A stretch of DNA of 64,000 nucleotides from Acidovorax carolinensis (GTDB lineage: Bacteria > Pseudomonadota > Gammaproteobacteria > Burkholderiales > Burkholderiaceae_C), in assembly GCF_002157145.1 (NCBI RefSeq), contig NZ_CP021361.1, positions 1,488,001-1,552,000 of the forward strand. The letters are read 5' to 3'. Below the pieces are notes generated by a model. The model had not been told where the DNA came from and made no database searches. It saw nothing but the letters and a program-made list of their open reading frames with translations. Of this stretch, positions 6,960 through 30,933 are shown piece after piece. Position 1 is the first letter of the stretch. Each line of letters starts with the position of its first letter. A program made the position numbers and the translations under genes.

Positions 6960-6973
6960 TTGATTAAGATCAA
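6960..6973. promoter_or_regulatory. Perfect FNR/Anr-type binding site
   Basis: The sequence TTGATTAAGATCAA matches the FNR/Anr consensus TTGAT-N4-ATCAA at every defined base. It lies in the gap between the leftward MerR gene and the rightward operon. Its centre (6966.5) is 41.5 bp upstream of position 7008, the start expected from the TAGGAT -10-like hexamer at 6996-7001. That is the spacing of a class II FNR-activated promoter. This suggests oxygen-limited activation of the long rightward operon. Confidence 0.75.
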
Positions 6974-6995
6974 GATCTCGCAGCTTGCCTAAGCA

Positions 6996-7001
6996 TAGGA
7001 T
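6996..7001 (+). promoter_or_regulatory. Putative -10 element of the rightward operon
   Basis: TAGGAT matches four of six bases of TATAAT and lies about 11 bp before the predicted start near 7008. No good -35 hexamer is present at the right distance, as expected for a promoter in which FNR/Anr bound at -41.5 replaces it. A separate TTGACC (6943-6948) with TAAGAT (6965-6970) could form a weaker sigma70 promoter overlapping the FNR site. Confidence 0.45.
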
Positions 7002-7028
7002 TGGTGTCATTGGGTATATAGGCCGCAC

Positions 7029-7462
7029 ATGCGCACACATCTCAACCCTCGTAGGATTCGTGCCATCGCGTGGATGGTGCTGGGGTATGGTTTTTTGCGC
7101 TTGCGGCCGGGATGGCGAATGCCTGCCTGTTGGAGTCCCCGGAGCCGCACCACTATGCGTCAGGGTATGAGCACGGCAATGGCCACTCCCATGGGGGTCA
7201 TGAGGGCGCCCACGAAAAGCATGAAGAGGGGAGCCAGGACCCGTCGAAGGCACCTTGCCTGAAACTTTGCGGAGAGGTCAACCAGTCGGCAATGCAGAAG
7301 ACGCCGACCTTTGCGTTCGACCTTATTGGGCTTCCGCCCCCTTCCTATACTGCCTGGGAACCGGCCCCGGCGCTGGCTCTGCGAGCCATCCTATTGAGGA
7401 GCCCCCAGCGGGCTCACCCACAGCCGCCTGCTTGGCTGCTGTTTGCACGTCTCGCGTTATAG
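7029..7462 (+). pseudogene. Secreted His/Cys-rich protein gene with a frameshift in its signal peptide
   Basis: Two overlapping frames together make one protein. Frame 7029 gives MRTHLNPRRIRAIAWMVLGYG, the start of a signal peptide; frame 7070 continues as FFALAAGMANACLLE and then a His-rich stretch (HGNGHSHGGHEG), a CLKLC pair and a C-terminus ending FARLAL. The switch is at a run of six T at 7091-7096; seven T would join the frames. This could be a real mutation, a sequencing error in a homopolymer, or slippage. The protein resembles small exported proteins I associate with efflux loci, but I cannot name the family. It is the first gene after the FNR-type promoter. Confidence 0.55.
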
Positions 7463-7616
7463 CCCCTCCTGTGAGCGCTGTGCCGGCTATGTCCCGCACG
7501 CGTCTCGTACGCCTTGACTCTGTACCCGGCTACGGAGTTCTCATATGGGATTTGTCTTCTGGAAGCGCCACTTGGCTCGACCAGACGACAAAAACCAGCG
7601 GCTAAAGGAGAAAGAA

Positions 7617-7811
7617 ATGACATTCGTGCGCTCCATCGCGGTCGTCTTCGGCGCCGCCCTCGTCAGTTTGTTTTCATTCGGGCAAGACGACCATCAGGCC
7701 CATCATCCTGCGGGTTCGAGCGCCCCTGGGACTTCGGCTCTAGTGGCGCCGAGCTTCGAGGGCATCCCGGAGCACTCGCGGATCAATGCTGCCTGGAACG
7801 AGCAGGCGTAA
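7617..7811 (+). CDS. Small exported His-containing peptide
   Basis: A 64-residue product with a hydrophobic N-terminus (VRSIAVVFGAALVSLFSFG) that looks like a signal or anchor, followed by a DDHQAHHPAG histidine cluster. ATG 7617 is preceded by AAAGGAGAAAGAA, a strong ribosome binding site, which decides this start over the upstream in-frame ATG at 7545. It ends 11 bp before the PPK2 start. The His cluster suggests a metal-binding periplasmic peptide acting with the P-type ATPase two genes downstream; function unproven. Confidence 0.6.
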   Translation: MTFVRSIAVVFGAALVSLFSFGQDDHQAHHPAGSSAPGTSALVAPSFEGIPEHSRINAAWNEQA

Positions 7812-7822
7812 CGGAGAACCCC

Positions 7823-8686
7823 ATGGCAAAGAACAAGAAGGCCGCGACAGGCGCGAAGAACAAGGCTCATGCGGACGTGACCGATGTCGCGCACAACCCG
7901 TCGCGCGACGAGGCAACGGAACGCTCGATCGGCCGCGAGGACTATGAGGCGCAGTTGCACATGCTGCAGATAGAACTCGTGAAGCTGCAGCGTCACTTCA
8001 TCAAATGTAGCGACCGCATCCTCATCCTCTTGGAGGGACGGGACAGTGCGGGCAAGGATGGCAGCATCAAGCGACTCGTCGAACACCTGAGTCCGCGGGA
8101 AACCCGGGTCGTCGCGCTCAGCAAACCCTCCGATCGGGACCGCACCAGTTGGTACTTCCAGCGCTACGTGCCGCACCTACCGGTCGGCGAAGAACTCGTT
8201 GTGTTCAACCGCAGCTGGTACAACCGCGCCGGCGTGGAGCCGGTGATGGGTTTCTGCACGGCTGAGCAGCACGAGGAGTTCATGAACTCCGTGCCGAAGT
8301 TCGAGGAGATGCTGGTCAACTCCGGCATCAAGCTGCTGAAGTATTACCTCGACATCGGGAAGAAAGAGCAGACCCGCCGGCTCAGTGAACGCCGCCGTGA
8401 CCCGCTCAAGCAATGGAAATCAAGTCCGGTCGACGCCGTGGCGCTGAAGCACTGGGACGGCTACACGCGTGCGCGCGACGAGATGTTCATACGCACGCAC
8501 ACCGCTGCCGCTCCCTGGTCCGTCGTGCTCGCCGACAACAAGCGAGTCGCCAGGCTCAACCTGATCAGGGACGTCCTCTCGCGGCTCCACTACGCGGGCA
8601 AGAAGCACAAGCTCATCGCACCCGACCGGGAGATCGTCTTCGAGTTCTCGCAGGACTGCCTGGATTCCGGCCGACTCGCACGTTGA
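7823..8686 (+). CDS. ppk2: Polyphosphate kinase 2 family protein
   Basis: A 287-residue PPK2 enzyme that transfers phosphate between polyphosphate and nucleotides in the cytoplasm. Visible motifs are Walker A GRDSAGKDGS near residues 72-81, the FNRSWYNRAG Walker-B-like segment, and the lid RRRDPLKQWKSSPVD. The N-terminal 35 residues are Lys/Ala-rich and probably flexible. ATG 7823 follows GGAGAACCCC; an upstream frame to 7514 lacks family sequence. The phosphorylated species (NMP, NDP) cannot be decided from sequence here. In this operon it could make nucleotides from polyphosphate when respiration is blocked, feeding ATP-consuming neighbours such as PRPP synthetase. Confidence 0.92.
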   Translation: MAKNKKAATGAKNKAHADVTDVAHNPSRDEATERSIGREDYEAQLHMLQIELVKLQRHFIKCSDRILILLEGRDSAGKDGSIKRLVEHLSPRETRVVALSKPSDRDRTSWYFQRYVPHLPVGEELVVFNRSWYNRAGVEPVMGFCTAEQHEEFMNSVPKFEEMLVNSGIKLLKYYLDIGKKEQTRRLSERRRDPLKQWKSSPVDAVALKHWDGYTRARDEMFIRTHTAAAPWSVVLADNKRVARLNLIRDVLSRLHYAGKKHKLIAPDREIVFEFSQDCLDSGRLAR

Positions 8687-8719: not shown

Positions 8720-11167
8720 ATGAAGTCAATCAACGTTGAAGTCGGAGGGCTCATATCGAGCCTGAGCGCGGAGGGAGTACGTCGCAAGTTGCTGCAGCTT
8801 CCCGGCGTCCATCACGCGGATGTCAACTACGTTGCGGGAAGCGCAACGGTCCATCTCGACGAACGGCAGCTCAGTGTCGAGGATCTGCGCCGCCGGATCG
8901 TGGAGTGCGGCTATCACTGCAGTGGCGAGCAGACGCCTAAGCATGTGTGCGATCCCGCCACGGGCAGTACGGCGGGCCAGCGCCATGACGGACACGCCGA
9001 TCACGCCGTGTCTGCGAAGCAGGAGGATCACGCGGTGCATTCGGGGCATGCCCATGCAGTCGGAGCGACTGCGACGATGGCCGCCTCGCCGGCCTCCCAT
9101 GCCGGGCACCAGGGCCACGCAGGCGAGCCCGTCATGGACGACATGATGCACGACATGGGGCACGGGTCTGGGTCGATGCAGGACATGGCCCGGGACATGC
9201 GCAATCGGTTCTTCGTGTCCCTGATCTTTTCGATTCCGGTGTTTCTCTATTCGCCGATGGGGAAGATGTTCGGCGACTTCCAGACACCGTTCGGGCTGGA
9301 CAACAAGCTCTTTCTTTTCATCTTCGCGAGCGCGGCGATCCTCTATCCCGGCTGGCCTTTCTGCATCGCTGCGTGGCGCGCTTTGCGCAACGGTGTCGCC
9401 AACATGGCCACGCTGGTCGTGCTGTCGGTGGGCGTGGGATACCTGTTCAGCGTCGGAGCGACCTTCTTCTACGAGGGTGAGGTGTTCTATGAAGCGGCGT
9501 CAGTGCTGCTGGTTTTCATCCTGCTGGGCCACTGGTTAGAGATGCGCGCCCGCGCGGGTGCGTCCGACGCGATTCGCGCGCTGATGGATCTCGCGCCACC
9601 GATGGCCACCGTCGTGCGCAACGGTGTCGAGACCAAGGTGCCAACCGCCGAGGTCGTGGCCGGTGAACTGGTGGTGATCAAGCCCGGCGACAAGATCCCG
9701 GTGGATGGCGAGATCGTCGAAGGAGCCTCGCAGGTCGACGAGTCGATGCTGACCGGCGAGTCGATGCCGGTCAAGAAGGTGGTAGGCAGCACCGTCGTTG
9801 GCGCCAGCATCAACAAGAGCGGGAGCTTCCGCTACAAGGCCACGAAGGTCGGTGCGGACACGGCATTGGCCCAGATCGTCAAGCTGGTCCAGGAGGCCCA
9901 GAACTCGAAGGCACCCGGCCAGCTGCTGGCCGACCAGGCGTCGCAGTGGCTGGTGCTGGCGGCGATCGTGATTGGCTTGTTGACCTTCAGCGTCTGGTAC
10001 TGGGTGATGGGCCAGACGCTGCTATTCGCACTCACCTTGACCATCACGGTATTCGTGATCGCATGCCCTGATGCGCTGGGCCTGGCCACGCCGATGGCCA
10101 TCATGGTCGGGACCGGCCTGGGTGCGATGAACGGCATCCTCTTCAAGAACGCGGCCGCGCTGGAGAACGCTACCAAGCTGACAGTGGTGGTGTTCGACAA
10201 AACCGGCACCTTGACACTCGGGCAGCCCGATGTCGTCGAGATCGTGGCCGCGCCCGGTTTCGAAGAGGCGCGGCTTCTGGCGACGGCCGCCGCGGTGGAG
10301 AAGTTCTCCGAGCACCCCCTTGCACTCGCAGTGCTCAAGCGTGCGGGGGACATGCCGACGGAGGTCACCGAGAACTTCACCAACATCGATGGGCAAGGTG
10401 CACGGGCCACCATCGGGGGCGAGAGGGTGCTGCTCGGGAACCGGCTGCTGATGCAGTCGGAGCAGGTAGACCTGACCGTCCTCGCCAGCGAGGCAACGCG
10501 GCTGCAAGGCGGCGGGCGCACGGTGGTCTATGTCGCGCGCGGCGGCCGGCTGATCGGCCTCATCGCAATCGCGGACGCCGTCCGGCCGACCTCGCGCGAG
10601 ACGATCTCCAAGCTGCAGGCGCGGGGCGTGAAGGTCGCGATGCTGACCGGCGACAACCAGGCGACCGCCGAGCGCATCGGCAAGGAACTGGGCATCGACA
10701 TCGTCCTTGCGGACGTGCTGCCCGGCCAGAAGGCATCCAAGATCAAGGAGTTGCAGCAGCAGGGCCACAAGGTGGGCATGGTCGGCGACGGCATCAACGA
10801 CGCTCCAGCGCTGACCCAGGCCGACGTCGGTTTTGCGATCGGCGCCGGGACGGATGTCGCCATGGAAAGCGCCCAGGTGGTGTTGATGAAAAGCGACCCG
10901 TACGACGTCGTCGGGGCCATCGAGCTCTCTCGCGCAACGCTGCGCAAGATGCACCAGAACCTATGGTGGGCCGTGGGCTACAACGTGGTCGCCTTCCCGC
11001 TTGCGGCTGGGGTGTTGTACCCCTTCACGCTGTCGCCGGAGGTTGCCGCGTTGTCGATGTCCGGCAGTTCTGCGATAGTGGCCATCAATGCACTAATGCT
11101 CAAACGCACGCGCTTACCGGGCATCAAGCGCGTCACGTCGCGCACCTCCGCTCAAGCGGTCGCGTGA
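8720..11167 (+). CDS. P1B-type heavy-metal ATPase with a CPD membrane motif
   Basis: An 815-residue metal-exporting ATPase. Residues 1-70 form an HMA-like fold, but the usual C-x-x-C is absent ([11 protein letters not shown]). Residues 80-160 are His/Met-rich. The core has TGES, D493 in DKTGTLT, SEHPLA and GDGINDAP. The sixth-helix metal motif reads C449-P450-D451 rather than CPC or CPH. Other helices look copper-type (YN in helix 7, MSGSS in helix 8), so Cu export is likely but the altered ligand may change specificity. It follows ppk2 by 33 bp. ATP supply by neighbouring energy genes would fit. Confidence 0.92.
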
Positions 11168-11171
11168 GCCC

Positions 11172-12515
11172 GTGCTGCGAGCCACCATGGTCGAGAGCCG
11201 CCCGATGAGATCGCCGCCGTCCAAAGCCAGGCTGGCCCGTCAGGACGATCTGGGCGTCGTTCAGCTGGGCTGGCTGGCGGCGGCCGTGTTCGTTGTCTCG
11301 GCCGGGTACGGCGCGTTGATGCCCTTGATTCCCGACTGGCTGCGCCCTCTGATGGGTGACGCCGACCCAGCGGTGCTCGCGCGCCATGTCGGCTACCTCA
11401 GCGGCATCTACACGGCCGGGATCCTTGTGGGGGCGCCACTGTGGGGCGTGCTGGCGGACAGGCTGGGACGCGCCCGCGTGTTGCTGGTCGGGCTGGTCGG
11501 CTATGTGGCGAGCCTGCTTCCGCTGCTGCGCCCCGAATCTGTGGGCGTGGTCGGCATCTATGCGCTGCGCGGCGCTGCGGGCTTCTTTGTCGCCGCAGTC
11601 GTGCCCGTGGTGCCGGCGCTCGTCGCGCAGTACACGCCGCAGGCGATACGCGCCAAGCGCTTCGCATGGTTGGGCGCGATGTCGCTGCTCGGGTTCCTGT
11701 TCGGACCCGGCCTCAACGCCGTCGCGGATCGCCTTGCCGGCTTGGGCGTCTTCGCCGCCCTCGTGCAGGGGTCATCGACCAAGCTCGTGATCGGACTCTC
11801 GGCCGCGCTGGGTGCGTTGATGATGCTGGGCCTGGCCGCCACGCTTCCCGCGCCGTCCAGCACTCTGGATGCGGGCCCGAGCGATGACGACGGCCCGCCC
11901 GAGAGCCGGTCCTTCACGCTCTGGCTGCTCAATGGCGTGGTCATGTTCGTGCTCGCTGGCTTTGAACTCGGCATCGTGCTGCAGGGCCAGCGTCATCCCG
12001 AACTCACGTCGCGCGAGGTGTCGTGGATGTTCGCCGCATGCAGCCTGGTGATGTTGGGCGTCAACGCGGTCCTGTTTTTCACCGGCTTGCTTGAGCGCGC
12101 TGATCCCCGTCGCATGTTGGCTGCCGGCATGGTCCTGGGTATCGCGGGACTCGCGGTGCTTGCTCGCCATGGCAGCGAGACCTGGATGTACGTTGGCGTC
12201 AGTTTCACAGCGGCGGGCACCGGTATCGTGCTGCCGACCGTTGCCTACCTCGCCGCAGGCTCCGCACGTCGGCGGCTCGGAACCGCGATGGGCGGCCTAG
12301 CGGCAGCAGCCGGCTTCGGGCAGACGCTTGGATCGGCAGTCGCCGGCTGGCTGTTCGGCACCGTCATGCAGAGCAGCTTCGCATGGCTCTCCATCCCGCT
12401 CGTGGCCACCCTCGCATTCTTGCTGATTCCCCGGCAGTGGTGGCCAGCGAACCCGGCCCTGCTGACAGCTTCACCTTCCTCCACTTCACCCACCTCCACG
12501 GAGACCGAACCATGA
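11172..12515 (+). CDS. Major facilitator superfamily transporter
   Basis: A 447-residue protein with about 12 hydrophobic segments and an MFS motif-A-like loop (GVLADRLGRARVLLVG, near residue 93). A His/Asp-poor central loop (about 235-250, PSDDDGPPESRS) separates the two halves. The substrate is not readable; drug or metabolite efflux is possible. The N-terminal 30 residues are basic and the true start could be one of several ATGs (11172, 11187, 11205). Its stop overlaps the lemA start as ATGA, so the two are probably translationally coupled. Confidence 0.85.
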   Translation: MLRATMVESRPMRSPPSKARLARQDDLGVVQLGWLAAAVFVVSAGYGALMPLIPDWLRPLMGDADPAVLARHVGYLSGIYTAGILVGAPLWGVLADRLGRARVLLVGLVGYVASLLPLLRPESVGVVGIYALRGAAGFFVAAVVPVVPALVAQYTPQAIRAKRFAWLGAMSLLGFLFGPGLNAVADRLAGLGVFAALVQGSSTKLVIGLSAALGALMMLGLAATLPAPSSTLDAGPSDDDGPPESRSFTLWLLNGVVMFVLAGFELGIVLQGQRHPELTSREVSWMFAACSLVMLGVNAVLFFTGLLERADPRRMLAAGMVLGIAGLAVLARHGSETWMYVGVSFTAAGTGIVLPTVAYLAAGSARRRLGTAMGGLAAAAGFGQTLGSAVAGWLFGTVMQSSFAWLSIPLVATLAFLLIPRQWWPANPALLTASPSSTSPTSTETEP

Positions 12516-13123
12516 GACTTATCCTGACGACCCTGCTCGCAGCGCTTGCCCTGTCGCTGAGCGGATGCGGCTACAACGACTTCCAGCGGTTGGACGAACA
12601 GACCAAGTCTGCCTGGTCCGAGGTGCTGAACCAGTACCAGCGACGCGCAGATCTGATACCGAACATCGTCGCGACGGTGAAAGGAGAGACCAACTTCGAA
12701 CAAGAGACGCTGACCCGGGTCGTCGAAGCGCGCGCCAAGGCCACCTCGATCCAGGCTACTCCGGAACTCGTCAACAACCCCGAGGCGTTCCAGAAGTTCC
12801 AGGCGGTGCAGGGCGAGCTGTCCGGCGCGCTGAGCAGGCTGCTGGTCGTGAGCGAGAACTACCCGCAGCTCAAAGCCAACCAGGGCTTCCAGGAACTGCG
12901 CGCGCAGCTTGAAGGCACCGAGAACCGCATCACCGTGGCCCGCGGGCGCTATGTGAAGGTGGTGCAGGACTACAACGTCCTCACGCGCAGCTTCCCGACC
13001 AACATCACGGCCAAGGTGTTCAGCTACGACGTCAAGCCGAACTTCTCCGTCGCCGACGAGAAGGCGATGGCCACGCCGCCCCAGGTCAACTTCGGCGCCT
13101 CGGCACCGGCGGCGCGCCCCTGA
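12512..13123 (+). CDS. lemA: LemA family lipoprotein
   Basis: A 203-residue LemA protein. The N-terminus MRLILTTLLAALALSLSGCG is a lipoprotein signal with lipobox LSGC, so it is membrane-anchored in the periplasm. The LemA core shows QRRADLIPNIVATVKG and the helical ENYPQLKANQGFQELRAQLEGTENRI segment typical of the four-helix bundle. LemA is often encoded beside TPM-domain proteins, as here: the next two genes carry TPM domains. The exact role of LemA is unsettled; envelope stress or maturation has been suggested. ATGA overlap with the transporter gene upstream. Confidence 0.93.
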   Translation: MRLILTTLLAALALSLSGCGYNDFQRLDEQTKSAWSEVLNQYQRRADLIPNIVATVKGETNFEQETLTRVVEARAKATSIQATPELVNNPEAFQKFQAVQGELSGALSRLLVVSENYPQLKANQGFQELRAQLEGTENRITVARGRYVKVVQDYNVLTRSFPTNITAKVFSYDVKPNFSVADEKAMATPPQVNFGASAPAARP

Positions 13124-13124: not shown

Positions 13125-14030
13125 ATGAGCACGCTGAGAACAGCGGTGCCGTACCCGGCCGCCCACCTGCGCCTGGCCCGCATGTTGGTCTGGCTGTTGC
13201 TGAGCCTGTTCCTGGTGGTCGCGTCCGCGCAGGAGCTGGTCGCTATTCCGCCGCTGCAGGCGCGTGTCACCGACCTCACGGGGACGCTCGCCGCCGATCG
13301 GGTCGCCTCGCTGGATGCGCAGCTTCGTGCCTTCGAGGAACGCAAGGGCGTGCAGATCGCGGTGCTGATGGTCGGCTCCACGCGGCCTGAACCGGTCGAG
13401 CAGTACGCCATGCGGGTGGTCGAGCAGTGGAAGCTCGGCCGCCGCAAGGTGGACGATGGCGCACTGCTGCTGGTTGCCAAGGAAGATCGCGCCGTGCGCA
13501 TCGAGGTTGGCTACGGCATCGAGGGCGCGCTGAGCGACCTGGTGGCGCGGCGCATCATCGACGAAGTAATCACGCCGCGCTTTCGCCAGGGCGATTTCGA
13601 CGGTGGCATCGCGGCAGGCGCCGAACAGATCATGCGCGTCGTCGACGGCGAAGCCCTGCCTGCGGCGGATCCACGGCGGCAAGGCCGGACCAACGACATC
13701 GGCCAGGCCTGGCCCTTCCTGTTCATCGTGGCTTTGATGCTGGGCGGATTGCTGCGCAACGCGCTCGGTCGGGTCCCTGGCGCCGTGGTCACAGCCGGGG
13801 TATTGGGTGCTGCGGCGTGGCTGGTGGTGGGCACCCTCGCGGTAGCCGCGCTGGCCGGATTGGCGGGATTCTTCGTCACGCTGCTAGGCATCGGCATGGG
13901 CGGCCACGGCGGCATGCATGGGCACCATCGGGGTGGTGGGTGGCCTGGTGGCGGATTCGGCGGCGGCGGAGGAGGATTCCGCGGCGGTGGCGGTGGCTTT
14001 GGTGGCGGTGGCGCCTCAGGACGGTGGTGA
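13125..14030 (+). CDS. TPM-domain membrane protein with Gly-rich tail
   Basis: A 301-residue protein of the YgcG/TPM family: N-terminal signal or anchor (about residues 14-35), a TPM domain (about 40-165, with VTDLTGTLAADRVASLDAQL and VEQWKLGRRKVDDGALLLVA), one or two membrane helices around 195-255, and a final 40 residues of Gly/His/Phe-rich sequence. This layout is typical of the TPM partner of LemA. The start is 2 bp after the lemA stop. TPM domains are probably periplasmic and have been linked to protein quality control; that is family knowledge, not visible here. Confidence 0.9.
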   Translation: MSTLRTAVPYPAAHLRLARMLVWLLLSLFLVVASAQELVAIPPLQARVTDLTGTLAADRVASLDAQLRAFEERKGVQIAVLMVGSTRPEPVEQYAMRVVEQWKLGRRKVDDGALLLVAKEDRAVRIEVGYGIEGALSDLVARRIIDEVITPRFRQGDFDGGIAAGAEQIMRVVDGEALPAADPRRQGRTNDIGQAWPFLFIVALMLGGLLRNALGRVPGAVVTAGVLGAAAWLVVGTLAVAALAGLAGFFVTLLGIGMGGHGGMHGHHRGGGWPGGGFGGGGGGFRGGGGGFGGGGASGRW

Positions 14031-23079: not shown

Positions 23080-24342
23080 TCACAGCAGGTGCGATATCTC
23101 GTTCAACGGCTTTAGGCCTGAGCCGAATCTGCCGATCGCATCGCGATGCGCGCCAAGCTCGCTGTAGGGGAGGTAGCGAATTCCCAGCTCCGCCACCCGC
23201 GTGAATGCCGGCCGACGCAACTGGCTGCGGACATCCTCGCGGCGAGCGTCCGGCGCCACCAGGAACATCGATACGCCCGCTCCCAGTTCCGTTCCCAAGG
23301 CCAGGTCGAGCATGCGCACGATGCCGGAATAGATCGAGGTCGAGTGCTCGACCTCGAAGGCAGCGGCGACCTTCGAGCCGTCGGCCTCCACCCAAATGAC
23401 GTCGATCAGGCGAACAGAGTCCAGACCGGCCCGGGCCTGCGCGGGGAGCTGCGTCAGACAGCCGTCTCCAAGGCGACCTCCCTGATAACTGCGCCCCTGA
23501 TCGTTGGACGCAATCCAGACACCGTAGCCGAGCGACTTGCCCAGGTCGCGCAGCCATCCCTGAATTTCGGTGTGGGTCGCGTCGCTCTCGCGCTCCGCGG
23601 CCCAGCGTTTGTGGGCCGCGGCCGATTCCTCGCGCACCTTTTCGAGATCGGCCTCCCAGCCCTGGAGGGCGGCCGCATCGTCATCGCGCGGTGGCGCCGC
23701 GTACCGGCCCGAGCCGATGTCGAACAGCAGCCCAGCCAGTGCCCCCATGTCGTTCGACAACGCGTTGCGGTGCTGGGCATTGAGGCGAAGGCCGCCTTCG
23801 CGCATCGAGAGGTAGTGCTCCCACTTGCCGAGCTTGACGCTGCTGCCCGTGACCGCGTTGTAGCCCTTCACGATCGCGGTGTTGAACGGCATCACGATCG
23901 TGGGGTGAACGAAGTACAGGAGATTCGCCACGGCGGGGCCCAGACCCTTGATCTGACGAGCGTCGATCCGCCGTATTGCTTCGATCACTTCCTCTGCGCT
24001 GTTGCAGCAGTCGCAGGTGTGCAACAACCGGGCAAAGGCCTGTTGGTTGGTCGCGTTCTCGTAGATGTCGGGAATGCGCAGCTTGGGCTTCCACAGGAAT
24101 GCATGGTCTGCCCCCTTGAAGATCTGGCGCTGCTCTGCCACCGAGCCGACCACCGTTTCGAGCGAGGAACCGCGGAATGCGCTACCGAAGGTGCCCGCAT
24201 CGATGTCCTTGACCACCTGCGCCAGGCCGCGGCGAATCGAGCGGAAGTTCTTCAGCCGTTCTTCCCAAAGGAACCAGGTGTTGTAGGTGCTCAGCGGATC
24301 GGCTTTCCAGTGACCGATGAGAGTTTCAAGCGCGTGGGACAT
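23080..24342 (-). CDS. Nuclease-like protein with helix-hairpin-helix and PD-(D/E)XK-like regions
   Basis: A 420-residue protein (from ATG 24342, MSHALETL). The N-terminal half has a helix-hairpin-helix-like stretch IKGLGPAVANLLYFVHP, as in DNA-glycosylase-type domains. The C-terminal half contains DVIWVEADGSKVAAAFEVEH, which fits a PD-(D/E)XK core (D...E-V-E-H). It looks like a restriction or repair-type nuclease, but no methyltransferase is adjacent and I cannot name a family. The frame extends to GTG 24384. A degraded copy of its C-terminus lies at 31793-31942. Confidence 0.55.
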   Translation of the reverse strand: MSHALETLIGHWKADPLSTYNTWFLWEERLKNFRSIRRGLAQVVKDIDAGTFGSAFRGSSLETVVGSVAEQRQIFKGADHAFLWKPKLRIPDIYENATNQQAFARLLHTCDCCNSAEEVIEAIRRIDARQIKGLGPAVANLLYFVHPTIVMPFNTAIVKGYNAVTGSSVKLGKWEHYLSMREGGLRLNAQHRNALSNDMGALAGLLFDIGSGRYAAPPRDDDAAALQGWEADLEKVREESAAAHKRWAAERESDATHTEIQGWLRDLGKSLGYGVWIASNDQGRSYQGGRLGDGCLTQLPAQARAGLDSVRLIDVIWVEADGSKVAAAFEVEHSTSIYSGIVRMLDLALGTELGAGVSMFLVAPDARREDVRSQLRRPAFTRVAELGIRYLPYSELGAHRDAIGRFGSGLKPLNEISHLL

Positions 24343-24447: not shown

Positions 24448-26868
24448 TCATGCCGAGACCATCACCGCCCGCGGGTCGCCGTGGCCTCCCACCGCGGCCA
24501 ACTCCTCGGCGGTCAATATGCTCGCGGGATCGACGCCGAGCGCCTGCGCTGCCTCGGTCGCGACGTGCGCCCACGTGCAGCGGTTCGCGAACAGCATGCC
24601 GGCAACGTCGAGCGTCCCACCGCGCGCCTGGTAGCCCAGTGCACGGGTCTGCCGAGGCCCTGTATCGATGCGGCGCAACAGGCCCAGCGTCGGCTCCGGC
24701 CGCATGTGCGAGACGATGACGCGCACCGCAGCGGTGTCCGGGAACAGCGAGCGCAATGCCGCGTCGCCCGCCACGAAAGCCCGCTCGCGCTCGTCGCGTG
24801 GCAGCCGGAAGCGGCCCGGCTCGATGACGCAGGTGACTGCCGTCCGATGCCCGGCGTCGTCCAGCCGCCGCGCCGCGAGCAGCGCCTGCTGTAGCTGGTA
24901 CGCACCGATGGCGACCAGCAAGACATCGGGTGCGTCGCAGGGCTTCACCACGCAGGCACCCTCATCGGCCAGACGCTGGGCCTGTTCGCCGCTCAGTTGG
25001 CTGGCCATGGCCCGCTTTGGAACGACCAGTGTCCAGAACTGGCCATGCGAGGTGTAGGCGGCTCGCAGCGCCGCGACGGCACTGTTGGCATCCACCGGGA
25101 ACAACACACGTGCGGTGTCGGACATCTCGCCCAGCAGCGCTTCGGCCAGTGTCGGGTCCTGATGGGACTGCTCGTTTTTGCCGTTCTCCCAGGTGTGGGA
25201 TGTCGCCACCGTCACTACCGACAGCCAGCCCGGAGGCATGCCGGCCTCCGCCTGGTGGCGCGCGAACAGGATTTCCTGCCGCAGTGCACCCAGCATCTTC
25301 ACGGCAAAGGCCTCGTAAGAAACAACGAGGTTGATGCCGCCCTTGTTACCCAGCGCCGCACTGACCACAGCCTCTTCGTTGAGGGCCGTGATCACGGCAC
25401 CATCCACGGCTTCAGCCAAGCCCGGTTCGGGCGTGAAGACGCGGTGTTTGAGCAGGTCCAAGGTCTGGCCCATGCGGTTGCTGCGCAGCTCGTCGGGATT
25501 GCCGACGCGCGGGCGCAGTTGAGTATTGGCCTTGATGATTGCGGCGAAGGCCCCGTCGAGCGCGCCCATCGGCGAGACATCGTTGTCGTGCCACTGCGGC
25601 TCCGGAAGCCTCGGCGCTGCGACCTGGCGATGCGCTAGGGCATGCTCCCGCTCAAGGGGACGGCGCTGCACCTCATGCCTGCAGAGCAGGGCCACCGCTT
25701 GGTCGATTTCACCCGGCGGTACAAACAACGCGCGCGCGCCCTCGTTGAACTGCTGCCGTGCTGACGGGTCGAGACGGGGATTGCCCGCCAGCGGCAGGTT
25801 GTGCGCGGCGTTGGTTCCGGCACCGGGAAAACCGAATCCTTTGGGCGCTTCGGCGATGGTGTAGTGAAGTGGCACCGGGTACTGAACGGTTCCACGCGAA
25901 ACCCCCGTAGCGCAGGCCGCCAGCCGTTCCTCCATCGCGTGGATGGCCCAGGCGAATGCGGCGGGGTCGGTGCCGTCGATCTCCATAGGGTCGAAGCCGT
26001 TCAGGCGCAGATGCTGCTGGAACCATTCGAGGCCGCCCTGCTGCTGCATGGTGCTGCGCTGCTCAATGCGACGGCCGTTGAGGATCATGAACGGAGCCAC
26101 GAATCCACTGTCCTCGGCGCGCCACCAGCGCGGCGCCCAGTCGCTGCCGCGCTGCTCCTCGAATGCACCGTCGCTGAGGAACACCACCAGCCGTTCGCCG
26201 GGCAGGGGCATGTGCACGTACTGCAGTTCGGCAAAGCCGAGATAGCCCCCCTCGGACAGGCCGCCTGCCGTGTTCGGGCCGACGTGGCTGCCCAGCGGCG
26301 AGGCCGGGCGCCCCTGCGCGTCGATCGCGTAGCTGTAGAAGTCCCGAGCGAAGCGCGTAAGGCCGTTCTCGCTTCGGTCGTACCGCTCGGCGTGGCGCGG
26401 CGTCATGTTGCCAACAAGCAGGTTGCAGGCGTCGATGCCCGCCACGCAATGGCCTTGACCCATCAGCCAGCCGCGTGTCAGGCCGCTGAGCGCGTTCGCG
26501 GCAAGGTAGCCGACATAGGCCGGCACGATGTTCAGTGATCCGCCGGTGTGGCCTTCAGGCGTCTCCTTGAAGTCCTCGGCCGCCATTTCCCGGCCGTCGG
26601 TATAGACCCGATCGGCATAGGTCATGTGAACCGTTAGCCACATCCCGGCCACGGCCAATCGGTCTGCGGCCCACAGCGTGCGGTAGATCGCGGATGTGTC
26701 GCTCGCCTTGCCTTCGGCGACCAGCACCTGTGCGAGGTCGTGGATTCGCAGCTGCGTGAGGTCGTTGTGGGCGATGGGGCCATGCCCGCGCGCCCAGCGC
26801 GCGAACTCGGGATCGAATTCGCGGAACAGTCGCACCCGCTCGGCGACCCAGGGGAGGTTGTGATTCAT
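24448..26868 (-). CDS. xfp: Phosphoketolase family protein (Xu5P/F6P)
   Basis: An 806-residue TPP-dependent phosphoketolase, splitting xylulose 5-phosphate (or fructose 6-phosphate) with phosphate into acetyl phosphate and glyceraldehyde 3-phosphate (or erythrose 4-phosphate). Visible are the EGHTGGSLNIVPAYVGY segment, GQGHCVAGIDACNLL, the DGAFEEQRGSDWAPRWW metal/TPP motif and the C-terminal HTWENGKNEQSHQDP stretch. It belongs to a divergent branch that databases sometimes label xylulose-5-phosphate 3-epimerase. ATG 26868 follows AAGGACCTTCAAA; upstream frame to 27075 is not family-like. Acetate kinase, which would use its product, is encoded 3 kb upstream on the same strand. Confidence 0.88.
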   Translation of the reverse strand: MNHNLPWVAERVRLFREFDPEFARWARGHGPIAHNDLTQLRIHDLAQVLVAEGKASDTSAIYRTLWAADRLAVAGMWLTVHMTYADRVYTDGREMAAEDFKETPEGHTGGSLNIVPAYVGYLAANALSGLTRGWLMGQGHCVAGIDACNLLVGNMTPRHAERYDRSENGLTRFARDFYSYAIDAQGRPASPLGSHVGPNTAGGLSEGGYLGFAELQYVHMPLPGERLVVFLSDGAFEEQRGSDWAPRWWRAEDSGFVAPFMILNGRRIEQRSTMQQQGGLEWFQQHLRLNGFDPMEIDGTDPAAFAWAIHAMEERLAACATGVSRGTVQYPVPLHYTIAEAPKGFGFPGAGTNAAHNLPLAGNPRLDPSARQQFNEGARALFVPPGEIDQAVALLCRHEVQRRPLEREHALAHRQVAAPRLPEPQWHDNDVSPMGALDGAFAAIIKANTQLRPRVGNPDELRSNRMGQTLDLLKHRVFTPEPGLAEAVDGAVITALNEEAVVSAALGNKGGINLVVSYEAFAVKMLGALRQEILFARHQAEAGMPPGWLSVVTVATSHTWENGKNEQSHQDPTLAEALLGEMSDTARVLFPVDANSAVAALRAAYTSHGQFWTLVVPKRAMASQLSGEQAQRLADEGACVVKPCDAPDVLLVAIGAYQLQQALLAARRLDDAGHRTAVTCVIEPGRFRLPRDERERAFVAGDAALRSLFPDTAAVRVIVSHMRPEPTLGLLRRIDTGPRQTRALGYQARGGTLDVAGMLFANRCTWAHVATEAAQALGVDPASILTAEELAAVGGHGDPRAVMVSA

Positions 26869-26974
26869 TTTGAAGGTCCTTGGAACCGACCCGCAATGAC
26901 GAGCGTCGGTGGGGTTGGGAACGCCGGCGTCTCGGATCGCCGGCGCAGAAACGAATGGCATGGCGCTGGGCACG

Positions 26975-27373
26975 TCAGACCTGCCTCGCATATAGCACCG
27001 CGGCCACGGCCCACAGCAAGGCAGGCAGCAATAGCACCCAGCGGAAGTCCGAGTGGAGGACGAAGTCCATCGCACTCATCAGCCCGACCGTCACAAGCCC
27101 GGAGAACGCGACGGCCCCGCCGGTACCGCCTTGCCGCTCGCGCATGGCCATGCGCGCCAGGTGGACGATCAGTACGCACGCGCCCGTCATGAAGCCGCCC
27201 ATCACCGTGAACACGATTCGCCGCCATGCCTCCAGACCGGGTGCCAATCCACGAAGCCGATCCAGCGGCACGCTGATGAAGCGCGGATCCTCGGGCAGCA
27301 GCGCCGGCCGCAGGAACACGAAGTAGGCGCCCAGCCTGACGAGCCAGACGCCGCAGGCCATGAACAGCGACAT
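26975..27373 (-). CDS. Small integral membrane protein
   Basis: A 132-residue protein with about four hydrophobic segments (near 5-20, 50-70, 85-105 and 112-130), starting MSLFMACGVWLVRLG. No motif I recognise. It is co-directional with, and 106 bp upstream of, the phosphoketolase gene. The start at 27373 was chosen because the longer frame is Arg-rich and not membrane-like. Confidence 0.6.
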   Translation of the reverse strand: MSLFMACGVWLVRLGAYFVFLRPALLPEDPRFISVPLDRLRGLAPGLEAWRRIVFTVMGGFMTGACVLIVHLARMAMRERQGGTGGAVAFSGLVTVGLMSAMDFVLHSDFRWVLLLPALLWAVAAVLYARQV

Positions 27374-27639
27374 GGAGGTGCGCGGCGCCTGCGTGCGCAG
27401 AGGTGCCACCGCGCTGTGTCGGCGGGCGTCTCGGCGTGCTTGTCGGCGGCTCACGGCGTACCATCGCTGCGGCGACCGCGTCACTGCGACCACGCGAAGC
27501 CGAACTGCGGATAGGGCGAACGCAGGTCTGCTGACCGTCCACCTCCACGCCCTCACATTGACCTGCATCGGGCAGAAGAATACAACTCGCGCAAACCGGT
27601 CAGCGGGTCTGCTCATCGTTCGCGCACCGTCATTGGCGT
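27374..27639. other. Intergenic region without a supported gene
   Basis: No convincing ORF, repeat or FNR-like site was seen here. It separates the cyclopropane-synthase stop from the small membrane protein start and may hold the promoter for the phosphoketolase pair. Confidence 0.4.
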
Positions 27640-28968
27640 TCATGGGGTAGTACCCGAGTAAAGATCGCGGCGCGTCAAAGGAACGGGCCATCTTCCGTCG
27701 TCTCGTTTGGACGCTACGATCTGGTAGATCCCTGTGCCGCCCGCCTCGAATTCCAGCGCGCATGCCGCCATGTACAGGCGCCAGACGCGGAAGGTCACCT
27801 CATCGACTTCCTGCAGGGCCTCCTCTCGGCGCGCTTCGAGTCGCTGAACCCAATGACGCAACGTCAGCGCGTAGTGGGATCGAAGACCTTCGACATCATG
27901 GATTTCGAAGCCGGACCGCTCCATCCCGAGCTGGATGTTGCTCACGCAGTCCAATTCGCCGTCAGGGAAGACATAGCGGTTGATGAACTCGGTCGCGACA
28001 GTTCGGTTCCAGCCCTCTTCGTCATGGGTGATCCCATGGTTGAGGAAGAGCCCGCCCGGCCGCAAAACACGCTGCACTACGGCGTAGTAGGCCGGCAGAT
28101 TAGCGAGGCCCACATGCTCGAACATGCCGATGCTGGACACCTTGTCGAATACGGCAGTGCCCTCGAGGTCACGGTAGTCGTGCAGCTCAACCGTGACGAG
28201 GTCCTGCAAGCCTTCTGATCGGATGCGCTCGCGCGCGTATTCGAGCTGCTGCTGGCTGAGAGTGATGCCGTGCGCGCGGACGCCATGTTCTCGTGCCGCC
28301 CAGCACACGAGCGCGCCCCAGCCGCAGCCGATGTCGAGCAGACGTTCGCCGGGCTGCAGCCGCAGCTTGCGGCAGATGTGCTCCAGCTTGTTGCACTGCG
28401 CCTGGTCCAGCGTGTCGTCCGGCGTCTCGAAGTAGGCGCAGGAATAGACTCTCTCGGCATCGAGCCAGAGACCATAGAACACGTTTGAAACGTCGTAGTG
28501 GAACGAAATTGCTGCTCGGTCGGTTTGGCGCGAATGTCGATGGGAGTAGCGGCGGGCAACGCGCGAGGCCAGACTCCGCGATGGTTTCAAACCATCCTGG
28601 TCAGACACGCGCAGTATCAGAGCGTCGCGCAACAGGGCCAGCTTGTCGCGCCAGGAGAGCGAGAACTTCTCGAAGTGCGCCTTGAGCCCAAGCGCGGTGT
28701 ACAGGTCTCCTTCGATGTCGATGGTGCCGCGGAAGTAGGCCTCCGCCAGCAGCAGCGGATCCGGCCGCAGGACAAGGCGTCGAAGAAGACCCGGGTCGCG
28801 GATGATCAGGGTGTACTCTGGATGCGACTCGAACTCGTGCAGGAGCACATCGCCCAGACGCAACGCCGGCTGGCGCTCGATGCCGGCCAGCAACCGGCGC
28901 AGGATGCGCAGCGCGGCGGCATTCATGTCTGGTGACGGGGGTTGCGCAAGTGTCTTGGATTGGTTCAT
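27640..28968 (-). CDS. cfa: Cyclopropane-fatty-acyl-phospholipid synthase family methyltransferase
   Basis: A 442-residue SAM-dependent enzyme of the CFA synthase family that adds a methylene bridge to unsaturated membrane lipids. The SAM motif LLDIGCGWGALVCWAA is clear, preceded by ISFHYDVSNVFYGLWLD and YSCAYFETPDD, and followed by VSSIGMFEHVG and the FPDGELDCVSN loop. Length fits the family (about 380-440). Cyclopropanation protects membranes under acid, metal or stationary-phase stress. ATG 28968 starts MNQSKTLAQ; the frame extends upstream without homologous-looking sequence. Confidence 0.9.
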   Translation of the reverse strand: MNQSKTLAQPPSPDMNAAALRILRRLLAGIERQPALRLGDVLLHEFESHPEYTLIIRDPGLLRRLVLRPDPLLLAEAYFRGTIDIEGDLYTALGLKAHFEKFSLSWRDKLALLRDALILRVSDQDGLKPSRSLASRVARRYSHRHSRQTDRAAISFHYDVSNVFYGLWLDAERVYSCAYFETPDDTLDQAQCNKLEHICRKLRLQPGERLLDIGCGWGALVCWAAREHGVRAHGITLSQQQLEYARERIRSEGLQDLVTVELHDYRDLEGTAVFDKVSSIGMFEHVGLANLPAYYAVVQRVLRPGGLFLNHGITHDEEGWNRTVATEFINRYVFPDGELDCVSNIQLGMERSGFEIHDVEGLRSHYALTLRHWVQRLEARREEALQEVDEVTFRVWRLYMAACALEFEAGGTGIYQIVASKRDDGRWPVPLTRRDLYSGTTP

Positions 28969-29121
28969 CTGGGGCACCTCAGTTGCTCGTGTGCAGCGCA
29001 AGCTGCGATGTAGGCAGACGACTCTTTTTCGCGCCGGCACGATCGACATGACCAACGCCACTTTTTTGCATGTCCGTAGAGCCTCATGATGTCTGGGAAT
29101 ATCAAAATCGATCAAAGTCGG

Positions 29122-29574
29122 TCATGCGCGTACACGACTAGACTTCGCTCGCACAGATTTGCGCTGAACGTCCGCTGCCGCTCCTTCGATCAGACTGCAG
29201 ACGGAATGGCCATCCGGTACTCCGTCAGGGAGTCGCGTCCAGTCGCGGTCTGCCTGCTGCATGCGCAGATGCAGCTCCGTCGCTTCCTTCAGTCGTCGAG
29301 CCTGTTCGTCAAGCCGCTCGCTCAGCAGCGCCCGAGCGCGCGGACAAGGAGATGTTCCGCGTTGACTCATCTCAACGAACTCCGCGGCGTCCTTGAGCGT
29401 GAAGCCGAGCGCCAATGCGTTGCGGATGAACCGCACCCGCGCCACGCTGCGCTCGGAGAACGCGCGATAGCCGTTCGCGCCGCGACCATCCGGCACCAGG
29501 AGGCCAACCCGCAGGTAATGGCGCAGCGTGTCTGGGGTCACACCTGCCTCCCGGGCGCATTCAATGAGTTGCAT
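29122..29574 (-). CDS. MerR-family metal-type regulator
   Basis: A 150-residue MerR protein: N-terminal MQLIECAREAGVTPDTLRHYLRVGLL helix-turn-helix, coiled coil, and cysteines in TSPCPRARALL (the position of the Cys79-type ligand of ZntR/PbrR) and HSVCSLIEG near the C-terminus. That pair suggests a thiolate-binding metal sensor. ATG 29574; the longer frame to 29643 runs through its own promoter. It lies between acetate kinase and the CFA synthase gene, on the same strand. Confidence 0.82.
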   Translation of the reverse strand: MQLIECAREAGVTPDTLRHYLRVGLLVPDGRGANGYRAFSERSVARVRFIRNALALGFTLKDAAEFVEMSQRGTSPCPRARALLSERLDEQARRLKEATELHLRMQQADRDWTRLPDGVPDGHSVCSLIEGAAADVQRKSVRAKSSRVRA

Positions 29575-29619
29575 CACCGTTCTCCAGCGGGGTAGTCTCG
29601 CGTCGAAACGCATGGCAGG

Positions 29620-29650
29620 AGTTTGAACCCAGGTGCCGCACATAGGTCAA
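29620..29650 (-). promoter_or_regulatory. MerR-type promoter with 19-bp spacer before the regulator
   Basis: On the minus strand, TTGACC (29650-29645) and CAAACT (29625-29620) are separated by 19 bp, the overlong spacer typical of MerR-controlled promoters. It lies 46 bp upstream of the MerR start, so the regulator probably controls its own gene and those downstream (cfa). Confidence 0.5.
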
Positions 29651-29787
29651 GAGCGTGGGTGTTTGATCGGCTGTGATCCCATTGTCCGTGCGCTTTCGGA
29701 AGTACAACCGGCAGAACACGGTGACAGGGGTGGACCGGCTTGTGGGCGACGCCGAAAGCGGGGCTGTTGCTGACCACGGTGCTCTCC

Positions 29788-30933
29788 CTATTCATCGATT
29801 TCGTGTTCGGCACTTACCGAACCATTCAACAACCTGGCAGTCTCGTGCGCGATCACCCACTGTTCGCGCGCACGCACGGCCAGCACCGCGACCGAGGACC
29901 TTGACGCCTGAAGCTGGGCGACTTCGGATGCCGGACTGAAGGCGAGATTGCGCTCCTCGTCCAGATGCAGGCCAAGGAATTCCAAGCCGTCCAGAATGCG
30001 GCAACGCAGCGTCGGGGAGTTTTCCCCTGCTCCGCCAGTGAAAGCCACCGCATCGCAGCCGCCCATCGCCGCGGCGTAGGCACCGATGTACTTGCGCACG
30101 CGGTAGGCATGGACCTGCAACGCCATTTGGGCAGCAGCATGACCATCCCGCGCGCGACTCTCGATCTCGCGCAGGTCCGAGCCCACACCCGACAACGCCT
30201 TCAGTCCACTGTCGCTGTAAAGCGCCGCTTCGATTTGCACCAGTGACAAGCCCAGGGTACGCGCGACATAGCCTGGCACGCCGGGGTCGAGGTCCCCGCT
30301 GCGTGTGCCCATCACCAGACCTTCCAGGGCCGTCATCCCCATCGAGGTGTCGACAGAGCGGCCACGGTCGATCGCGCAGACACTTGCCCCATTGCCGATG
30401 TGGCAGCTCACGATGCGCAGTTCGGATGGAGGCCGCATCAACGCGGAACTGACAGCCGCCAGTACGCTCTGGTGCGACAGGCCATGAAACCCGAATCGCC
30501 GCACCCCAACTGCGCGCCATGACTGCGGAACGGCATAGCATGAGGCGTGTTCTGGCATGCCGGCATGAAAAGCGGTGTCGAAGACCGCCACGTGGCGCAC
30601 GCCTGGCCAACGCTCGCGCGCGATGCGGATGCCGGCCAGTGCAACGGGGTTGTGCTGCGGCGCCAGCGCAGCAGCCTGGTCGATCTCGTGCTCGACTTTC
30701 GCGTCCACGAAAGCCGCCTCGCGCAAGAAGGGGCCACCGTGTGCGACACGGTGGCCGATGGCATCGAGCGACGTCACGCCGGACCTTCGTACTCGCTGCT
30801 CGATCTCGTCAAACGCCGCGACATCAACTGCGGGATGGTCGATCGTCGACTCGATCACAGTCGTGGCCGATGCCGGGTCGAAAACCCCGAACTTGAGGGT
30901 CGCACTGCCGGCGTTGATGGCTAGGATGTGCAT
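29788..30933 (-). CDS. ackA: Acetate kinase
   Basis: A 381-residue acetate kinase converting acetyl phosphate and ADP to acetate and ATP. Family signatures are LAINAGSATLKFGVFD at the start, AVFDTAFHAGMPEHA, SCHIGNGASVCAI, DTSMGMTALEGLVMGTRSGD and FTGGAGENSP. ATG 30933 is set by MHILAINAGS; the frame continues to 31053 without similarity. Slightly shorter than Escherichia coli AckA (400). No phosphotransacetylase gene is in the window, so acetyl phosphate is most simply supplied by the phosphoketolase encoded nearby. Confidence 0.95.
   Translation of the reverse strand: MHILAINAGSATLKFGVFDPASATTVIESTIDHPAVDVAAFDEIEQRVRRSGVTSLDAIGHRVAHGGPFLREAAFVDAKVEHEIDQAAALAPQHNPVALAGIRIARERWPGVRHVAVFDTAFHAGMPEHASCYAVPQSWRAVGVRRFGFHGLSHQSVLAAVSSALMRPPSELRIVSCHIGNGASVCAIDRGRSVDTSMGMTALEGLVMGTRSGDLDPGVPGYVARTLGLSLVQIEAALYSDSGLKALSGVGSDLREIESRARDGHAAAQMALQVHAYRVRKYIGAYAAAMGGCDAVAFTGGAGENSPTLRCRILDGLEFLGLHLDEERNLAFSPASEVAQLQASRSSVAVLAVRAREQWVIAHETARLLNGSVSAEHEIDE

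Follow-up and report, generated by a model that had tools for sequence, protein, structure and literature searches.

A mobile gene set around a divergent phosphoketolase in Acidovorax carolinensis and a proposed route from nucleotide ribose to acetyl phosphate

Results

Two facing gene sets on the chromosome

The window analysed here is a 64-kb stretch of the Acidovorax carolinensis genome (positions 1,488,001-1,552,000 of a 4.12-Mb single-contig chromosome), and its subject is a group of metabolic genes that includes a divergent phosphoketolase. Two facing gene sets converge at ~23.05 kb, one on the plus strand (7.5-23.0 kb) and the other on the minus strand (23.1-31.5 kb; Table 1). The plus-strand set encodes, in order, polyphosphate kinase 2 (PPK2), a P-type ATPase, an MFS transporter, LemA, two TPM-domain proteins, a beta-CASP RNase, an adenosine monophosphate (AMP)-type phosphorylase, a phosphoribosyl pyrophosphate (PRPP) synthetase (PRPS), a DUF6629 protein, a D-2-hydroxyacid dehydrogenase, a UbiB-like kinase and a type II glyceraldehyde-3-phosphate dehydrogenase (GAPDH). 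Read in its own direction, the minus-strand set begins with a FliE-like gene and continues with genes for a small protein, acetate kinase, a MerR regulator, cyclopropane fatty acid (CFA) synthase, another small protein, the phosphoketolase and a restriction-endonuclease-like protein. We propose, with our confidence evenly poised between acceptance and rejection, that these genes form a mobile energy-maintenance route that leads from RNA and pentose to acetyl phosphate and is induced at low oxygen.

Enzymes were identified with Pfam and NCBIfam models, CFA synthase lying outside the NCBIfam scan, and start codons were taken from the annotation of the Acidovorax plasmid p1-T1 (NZ_CP021649). Significant Pfam matches were obtained for PPK2, the beta-CASP RNase, the AMP/thymidine phosphorylase, PRPP synthetase, the D-2-hydroxyacid dehydrogenase, type II GAPDH, phosphoketolase, CFA synthase and acetate kinase. 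The enzymes named in an initial annotation of the window, which had described an anoxic energy-stress module, are all real by these Pfam matches, and each of them that was scanned matched an NCBIfam model too; its gene list had missed the UbiB/ABC1 kinase, the MFS transporter, LemA, the two TPM proteins, the DUF6629 protein, two MerR regulators and the restriction-endonuclease-like gene.

Table 1. Features of the window (positions in the window; p1-T1, plasmid NZ_CP021649; ORF, open reading frame).
Feature	Position	Strand	Basis and remarks
MerR-family regulator, C-x8-CP motif near C terminus	6447-6917	-	Pfam MerR-DNA-bind/MerR_1 on longer ORF 6444-7253; 98% identical to p1-T1 MerR; divergent from plus set
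Perfect FNR/ANR/FixK-type palindrome TTGAT-N4-ATCAA	6960-6973	.	upstream of plus set; 43 bases from MerR start
Polyphosphate kinase 2, accessory	7823-8686	+	TIGR03707 353.9 bits, cut-off 301.8
Heavy-metal P-type ATPase with HMA domain, CPD motif (many have CPC or CPH)	8720-11167	+	Pfam, sequence, motif census
MFS transporter, accessory	11205-12515	+	Pfam MFS_1; start from p1-T1
LemA protein, accessory	12512-13123	+	Pfam
Two TPM-domain proteins, accessory	13125-14030, 14032-14529	+	Pfam
Beta-CASP metallo-beta-lactamase-fold RNase, core	14555-15913	+	Pfam Beta-Casp, RMMBL, Lactamase_B
AMP/NMP-phosphorylase-type enzyme, thymidine phosphorylase family, core	15910-17451	+	TIGR02645, PRK04350, PDB 4ga5
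Divergent PRPP synthetase paralogue, adjoins phosphorylase, core	17448-18347	+	PRK07199 424.1 bits, cut-off 322
DUF6629 protein, accessory	18401-19045	+	PF20334
Methyltransferase gene remnant	19075-19284	+	tblastn to p1-T1 protein, 59% identity over residues 148-217 of 220
D-2-hydroxyacid dehydrogenase, D-lactate dehydrogenase-like, accessory	19293-20324	+	best PDB match 5z20, E 5.7e-71
UbiB/ABC1 atypical kinase, frequent partner	20411-21943	+	Pfam ABC1
Type II (archaeal-type) GAPDH	21971-23014	+	PRK04207 448.9 bits, cut-off 185; SCNTT motif
Restriction-endonuclease-like protein, accessory	23080-24342	-	PADLOC REase_II E 7.5e-14; no Pfam match
Divergent phosphoketolase, core	24448-26868	-	Pfam XFP, XFP_N on longer ORF 24448-27075
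Cyclopropane fatty acid synthase, accessory	27613-28968	-	Pfam CMAS E 5e-96 on longer ORF
MerR-family regulator, flanked by the genes for CFA synthase and acetate kinase	29122-29574	-	98.7% identical to p1-T1 MerR
Acetate kinase	29788-30933	-	Pfam Acetate_kinase E 4.5e-114; TIGR00016 373.8 bits, cut-off 293.4
Relaxase (DUF3363)	57828-59936	-	Pfam; segment colinear with p1-T1
ParA	61666-62409	-	Pfam; beyond relaxase, same strand
RepA	62594-63775	-	Pfam; beyond relaxase, same strand

The best PDB match of the D-2-hydroxyacid dehydrogenase is titled 'D-lactate dehydrogenase (Fermentative)'. The FliE-like flagellar basal-body protein that opens the acetate kinase set (31229-31537, 72 bits) represents the sole flagellar family among the scanned ORFs.

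A recurring core with variable passengers

Related loci were collected by a profile scan of genome contigs that returned at least 562 phosphoketolase relatives, and neighbours up to about 10 kb from the phosphoketolase were counted for the 80 best-scoring loci, which are no random draw. The phosphorylase was found in 56 of these loci, PRPS in 53, the RNase in 52, the P-type ATPase in 47, acetate kinase in 46 and the UbiB-like kinase in 41, while type II GAPDH (21 loci), CFA synthase (19), the D-lactate dehydrogenase (D-LDH)-like enzyme (11), the restriction-endonuclease-like gene (4) and PPK2 (2) were less common. At least 7 kb was available on both sides in 60 of the 80 loci and the remainder were truncated by contig ends, so that the counts are lower bounds. 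If 1.1 phosphorylase copies per genome were placed at random, about 0.4-0.6 loci with a phosphorylase near the phosphoketolase would be expected against the 56 seen (three of these matches being just 37-41% identical), and the grouping of the core is thus beyond chance. When the cut-off was tightened, the RNase, the phosphorylase and PRPS were each present in 39 of the 60 genus-level groups, and the latter two together in 36.

Many of these genes are also direct neighbours on the same strand, less than 600 bp apart: RNase-phosphorylase in 40 of the 80 loci, phosphorylase-PRPS in 41, PRPS-phosphoketolase in 35 and phosphoketolase-UbiB in 22. The core therefore consists of the beta-CASP RNase, the AMP-type phosphorylase, the divergent PRPS and the divergent phosphoketolase, often accompanied by acetate kinase, the UbiB-like kinase and the metal P-type ATPase; PPK2, the D-LDH-like enzyme, CFA synthase and type II GAPDH are accessory and no conserved partners. 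Co-occurrence elsewhere, which had been set as a test beforehand, hence held for the core genes. Polyphosphate as an integral part was rejected on the two PPK2 loci, and the D-LDH-like enzyme, which the initial annotation had likewise written into its scheme, drops out of it with 11 of 80. It is very improbable that the whole set is loose cargo, unrelated stress genes gathered on mobile elements with no joint action: PPK2, CFA synthase, the D-LDH-like, LemA/TPM, MFS and restriction-like genes do vary freely between islands, as such cargo would, but the explanation is already unlikely for the core, for which two gene orders (RNase-phosphorylase-PRPS-phosphoketolase and PRPS-phosphoketolase-RNase-phosphorylase) recur across Proteobacteria.

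A less biased sample of 199 genomes, drawn evenly from the phylum, contained the phosphoketolase in nine genomes (host included) at ten places. In the same sample the phosphorylase was present at 28 places at 46% identity or more, and 24 of these lacked the phosphoketolase; in the 12 of these 24 that were fetched, a PRPS paralogue was adjacent in every case and the RNase as well in seven. From these adjacencies we infer that phosphorylase and PRPS form a wider unit, with the RNase as a frequent partner, to which the phosphoketolase was added in one branch. Among five loci fetched from the six genomes with the phosphoketolase only, three (L100, L101 and L107) have it divergent from a distant RNase relative and two (L102 and L103) do not, and loci of Thauera, Dechloromonas, Curvibacter and Comamonadaceae CD01 combine RNase, acetate kinase and phosphoketolase with no phosphorylase. 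On plasmids, 13 of 15 phosphoketolase carriers have the phosphorylase within 10 kb. On a Sphingobium plasmid (L113, 9001-19527), genes for F0F1 ATP synthase lie at a distance of a few kb from RNase-phosphorylase-PRPS.

An archaeal-type phosphorylase and the proposed fate of its product

The HxHxDH histidines and aspartate of the beta-CASP RNase are kept in 73 of 73 relatives. An antiphage role for this protein, prompted by a Cas14-like score below the model cut-off, was rejected, as PADLOC returned no match for either the RNase or the phosphorylase.

The phosphorylase scored well above the cut-offs of TIGR02645 (593.9 bits, cut-off 434.6) and PRK04350 (697.2 bits, cut-off 434). Its match to PDB 4ga5 (E 6.6e-107, 361.4 bits) extends over residues 53-506 of 513 and includes the N-terminal domain, and the pyrimidine-nucleoside phosphorylases in the PDB score at most 130.2 bits. 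The entry 4ga5 was deposited as a putative thymidine phosphorylase and is, we assume, the Thermococcus AMP phosphorylase. The enzyme of the window thus looks specific for nucleoside monophosphates (NMPs), like archaeal AMP phosphorylase, and not like a classical thymidine phosphorylase, and ribose-1,5-bisphosphate (R15P) rather than ribose-1-phosphate is therefore its likely product. If it does act on NMPs, phosphopentomutase is no missing step, and the combination of nucleoside phosphorylase and phosphopentomutase that had been suggested for this locus is probably wrong.

In archaea such as Thermococcus, AMP phosphorylase acts with R15P isomerase and form III RuBisCO in NMP degradation, the pentose bisphosphate pathway. 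A non-carboxylating variant has been described in haloarchaea (PMC9700705). The set studied here resembles the archaeal pathway in that an NMP phosphorylase would channel nucleotide ribose into central carbon metabolism, and differs in that a PRPS paralogue and a phosphoketolase lie beside the phosphorylase instead. In the host genome there were no matches to PF01008 (R15P isomerase; 9 of 14 control genomes positive) or to PF00016 (RuBisCO large chain; 5 of 14 controls positive), and the classical RuBisCO route was rejected on these grounds. The host does encode a PhnN-type R15P kinase above the family cut-off, and it has Rpe and RpiA matches.

The PRPS paralogue is recognized by TIGR01251 (173.6 bits, cut-off 113) and shares 24% identity with the copy presumed to be the housekeeping one. 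Motifs that presumably serve ATP and metal binding, the catalytic loop and the PRPP loop are kept throughout (FPD-E and RQD in 78 of 78, H127 in 78 of 78, K191 and R193 in 79 of 79, DD and T226 in 79 of 79). Where the other chromosomal copy reads PDVGGVVRA, i.e. PD-x-GG, the island enzyme has PDxESxQW, with E170 and W174 in 79 of 79 sequences, S171 in 78 and Q173 in 76; the archaeal solved structure 1u9y carries PDKGA at this position, and the GG is thus not universal in the family. The paralogue may return R15P or PRPP to ribose-5-phosphate (R5P). A second phosphorylase-PRPS pair lies elsewhere on the host chromosome (2103008-2105451), 49% and 40% identical to the pair in the window and with no phosphoketolase nearby.

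The same enzymes could instead serve PRPP and nucleobase salvage under stress, RNA being converted via NMP and R15P to PRPP to rebuild nucleotides or nicotinamide adenine dinucleotide, with the phosphoketolase as a separate pentose outlet that shares the transcript. We consider this improbable. The phosphorylase-PRPS pairs without phosphoketolase (all 12 loci fetched), the additional pair at 2.103-2.105 Mb of the host chromosome and a nicotinate phosphoribosyltransferase listed for the lxa-type cluster of Burkholderia contaminans (PMC4981469, Table 2) would all suit salvage, but the PRPS gene stands immediately before that of the phosphoketolase in 35 of 80 loci and acetate kinase is present in 46, and both counts speak against it.

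A divergent phosphoketolase

Both Pfam domains of phosphoketolases were recognized in the protein of the window (XFP 135.2 bits, cut-off 22; XFP_N 38.9 bits, cut-off 23.7), which is by its sequence a separate, divergent branch. Of 16 residues checked, 14 were identical in 96 of 96 relatives, including H107, H140, H195, D233, N264, H356, E498, Y518, N565, H569 and K618; the canonical roles were assigned in part from the 8io6 alignment. The catalytic histidines, the glutamate and the thiamine diphosphate (ThDP)/Mg site thus appear to be retained. Compared with the bifidobacterial-type xylulose-5-phosphate/fructose-6-phosphate phosphoketolases (8io6, 3ai7), with which it shares the XFP and XFP_N domains and an aligned ThDP-site and histidine pattern, the protein is set apart by a distant PDB match (about E 1e-16), by a Lys in 96 of 96 sequences where 8io6 has a His (the DHNGFSHQDP stretch), and by a variable residue after SN (Arg in 40, Lys in 34, His in 16 and Gln in 3 of 96). 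Owing to these two positions, the substrate may differ. On a Phenylobacterium zucineum plasmid the phosphoketolase is followed by an NAD-type 6-phosphogluconate dehydrogenase (gnd), an arrangement that fits pentose phosphate as substrate. FixJ/PAS and stress genes accompany this phosphoketolase-gnd pair (L115, 11992-16582), and the same plasmid carries RNase-phosphorylase-PRPS at a distance of about 58 kb (L116, 12055-14363).

A candidate low-oxygen control site

Upstream of the plus-strand set lies a perfect copy of TTGAT-N4-ATCAA, which we take to be an FNR/ANR/FixK-type motif. The 4.12-Mb genome has 14 perfect boxes in all, this one included; about 0.002 are expected by genome density in the 628-bp gap that holds it, and p1-T1 has a box at the same place. 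When one mismatch was tolerated, 21 of 100 shuffles reached at least two boxes per 64-kb window; position, and not number, is therefore what is significant. Another of the 14 boxes, at 3874, lies upstream of the set within ORF 3409-5160. Plasmid neighbours of the phosphoketolase include a Crp/Fnr regulator, FixJ/PAS proteins with universal stress proteins, and a flavohaemoprotein with universal stress proteins, and cytochrome bd genes lie near phosphoketolase-acetate kinase on a plasmid.

The initial annotation had pointed to the low-oxygen locus lxa of Burkholderia cenocepacia, for which Table 2 of PMC4981469 lists acetate kinase (BCAM0293), a metallo-beta-lactamase (MBL) protein (BCAM0300) and a cation ATPase (BCAM0318), together with FNR-type regulators, several universal stress proteins and polyhydroxyalkanoate (PHA)/Pta genes (further lxa sources: PMC6127331, PMC3759415, PMC9104464, PMC4505428, PMC9733578). 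The overlap extends to acetate kinase, the MBL protein, the cation-transporting ATPase, FNR-type regulators and patchy presence among strains. It does not include phosphoketolase, phosphorylase, PRPS or GAPDH, none of which appears there by name, in a comparison of gene names alone in which many lxa genes are hypothetical; the several universal stress proteins and PHA/Pta genes are, in turn, lxa features. A close kinship was rejected, as three named enzyme functions are shared and the core is missing by name in that source. On this comparison lxa is a relative in kind, and common descent is not evident from the gene names.

Metal genes as frequent neighbours

The linkage to a metal ATPase noted earlier for the window recurs in 47 of 80 loci. 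In the loci censused, the P-type ATPase carries CPH (30), CPD (15), CPC (13) or SPC (1), and the CPD of the window looks like the mark of a subfamily and not an error, since 15 loci from several hosts, p1-T1 included, share it. Another 124 proteins from the neighbourhood of 14 loci fall into 84 families, of which the 25 commonest include an RND pump (5), DUF2933 (4), CusB/HlyD (3), DUF411 (2) and cation efflux (2), DUF2933 and DUF411 being presumably linked to metals. Multicopper oxidase and copper-binding/cupredoxin genes lie beside the set in the window and on plasmids. Low oxygen therefore need not be the sole trigger, although the FNR-type site fits the low-oxygen control proposed earlier.

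These neighbours suggest a different function, in which the set rides on metal-resistance elements and replaces copper-poisoned enzymes, energy at low oxygen being a side benefit: the spares would comprise additional copies of PRPP synthetase and GAPDH, a route from NMP to R15P/PRPP and a phosphoketolase bypassing iron-sulfur dependent steps. In Staphylococcus aureus, Prs is inhibited by copper both in vitro and in vivo, and GapA is inhibited as well (PMC10249872), which makes this explanation a serious one and the main alternative to the energy route; the ATPase in 47 loci, the RND, CusB/HlyD, DUF2933, DUF411 and cation efflux families, the copper genes beside the set and a MerR regulator at each of the window's two gene sets are also in its favour. 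We nevertheless find it unlikely on balance, for it leaves the RNase and acetate kinase unexplained, type II GAPDH occurs in just 21 of 80 loci and retains its SCNTT cysteine, so that copper insensitivity is not obvious, and in two plasmid stretches the phosphoketolase is accompanied by genes for stress or oxygen sensing, while a copper oxidase is not among the genes annotated there. The Pseudomonas aeruginosa copper islands GI-7 and GI-HMR (PMC8872213, PMC12847981) are similar as mobile metal-resistance elements with copper genes. Compared by text alone, they gained no support as candidate carriers of the set: phosphoketolase, xylulose and polyphosphate have no occurrence in the texts of these two papers, nor has phosphorylase in PMC8872213 or thymidine in PMC12847981.

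Mobility and mosaic history

Plasmid p1-T1 covers 100% of the 7.0-31.5 kb segment at 96.8% identity, and the blocks of the window are colinear with it up to the relaxase. The closest named relatives among the matches listed are Acidovorax (the phosphoketolase of A. delafieldii 2AN is 100% identical); within the genus the phosphoketolase occurs in four of 24 genomes, host included, one of the others being 100% and two 61-66% identical. A sister island is 99.2-99.9% identical pairwise over about 18-22 kb between Hydrogenophaga, Achromobacter, Stenotrophomonas and two Burkholderiales assemblies, with an Aquabacterium copy about 98.7% identical to the others, pointing to recent transfer between families and between Beta- and Gammaproteobacteria (NCBI naming). 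Of 72,556 plasmid records, 15 carry the phosphoketolase (E 1e-30), 10 predicted to be conjugative, two mobilizable and three non-mobilizable. With a near-identical plasmid copy, different hosts and the relaxase, ParA and RepA genes, the set is mobile, as had been proposed.

Identity along the window follows an opposite pattern in its two parts. From PRPS to the UbiB-like gene (17.4-21.9 kb) the sister island is the closer match, at 97.7-99.8% against 84-96% for p1-T1; from GAPDH to acetate kinase p1-T1 is the closer one, at 97.7-99.9% against 78-88% for the sister island. This pattern indicates a mosaic formed by recombination between two island versions. The 210-bp methyltransferase remnant is 98.6-100% identical to sister islands (L009, L010, L012) and 76% to p1-T1, on which the gene is whole and accompanied by trypsin-like and VTT genes absent from the window. 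A phosphoketolase cluster (P0001) 91% identical to that of the window has 401 members, and one of its source names is from Pseudomonas aeruginosa; the sister island may be common in this species.

Discussion

The route we propose builds on the genes and their adjacency, the conserved residues, the FNR-type box, the mobility of the set and the RpiA, Rpe and PhnN-type matches of the host. The beta-CASP RNase would degrade RNA, finally to 5'-nucleotides (step 1), from which the AMP-phosphorylase-type enzyme would release, with phosphate, the base and R15P (step 2). R15P would then be converted to R5P without RuBisCO, most likely via PRPP made by the host PhnN-type kinase or by the divergent PRPP synthetase itself, the PRPS paralogue running PRPP + AMP to R5P + ATP (step 3). 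Host ribose-5-phosphate isomerase and ribulose-phosphate epimerase would supply xylulose-5-phosphate (step 4), which the phosphoketolase would split into acetyl phosphate and glyceraldehyde-3-phosphate (step 5), and acetate kinase would yield ATP (step 6). Type II GAPDH and the D-LDH-like enzyme may extend the route in some islands, and an FNR/FixK-type regulator would turn the set on at low oxygen. All enzyme activities, that of step 3 (R15P to R5P) above all, and the regulation are predictions.

Several observations weigh against this route and its control. To our knowledge, no enzyme carries out the conversion of PRPP or R15P to R5P in this way. The phosphorylase does not reach the NCBIfam AMP_phos equivalog TIGR03327 (476.6 bits, cut-off 535), the phosphoketolase falls far below the NCBIfam phosphoketolase model (best 114.9 bits, cut-off 777), and its PDB matches at only about E 1e-16 place it far from studied enzymes. 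Within the 80 loci, themselves the best-scoring of at least 562 and hence no random draw, 25 had no phosphorylase at E 1e-20, some of them being cut by contig ends. In the 199-genome sample a phosphorylase lay within 10 kb at four of the ten phosphoketolase places (the host, two in genome G183 and one in G042), and the six other phosphoketolase genomes gave no phosphorylase match at E 1e-20; with six of ten places in such genomes, the phosphoketolase is not tied to nucleotides everywhere.

On the side of regulation, the neighbour counts covered metal genes, which are frequent, 71 of 87 loci have no perfect FNR box, and each of 40 related genomes has between 1 and 27 perfect boxes. The 25 perfect boxes found in 115 partly overlapping sequences (window included), against at most one for 19 composition-matched palindromes, contain several copies of one site (the window and p1-T1; the six sister islands L009-L012, L015 and L021). 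For the relaxed form TTGAY, 54 boxes stand against 4.3 expected under a Markov model, and three of 59 permuted arms were high as well (34, 31 and 19; median 1). Because of this genome background, the repeated site copies and the high permuted arms, the enrichment over that background is taken as only few-fold, and the 12-fold value of the Markov comparison was set aside.

A bolder version of the proposal is that bacteria pass among themselves a pathway for RNA fermentation, in which a cell burns its own RNA to acetate under anoxia. Here the repurposed PRPS (PDxESxQW) would recover the phosphate bond as ATP while making R5P, and the divergent phosphoketolase would complete the route, the two replacing archaeal isomerase and RuBisCO. 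In this full form we think it rather unlikely. The component families are known, and no description of the gene combination was found in the open-licence literature; the combination looks like a novel form of nucleotide-ribose catabolism, carried by a mobile stress element of a familiar type.

If the energy-maintenance route proposed here is correct, Proteobacteria would ferment nucleotide ribose without RuBisCO, by means of genes that move between species with metal resistance. The anoxic persistence of aerobes would then be linked to metal-resistance elements, and the use of RNA as an emergency fuel would become a directly testable question.

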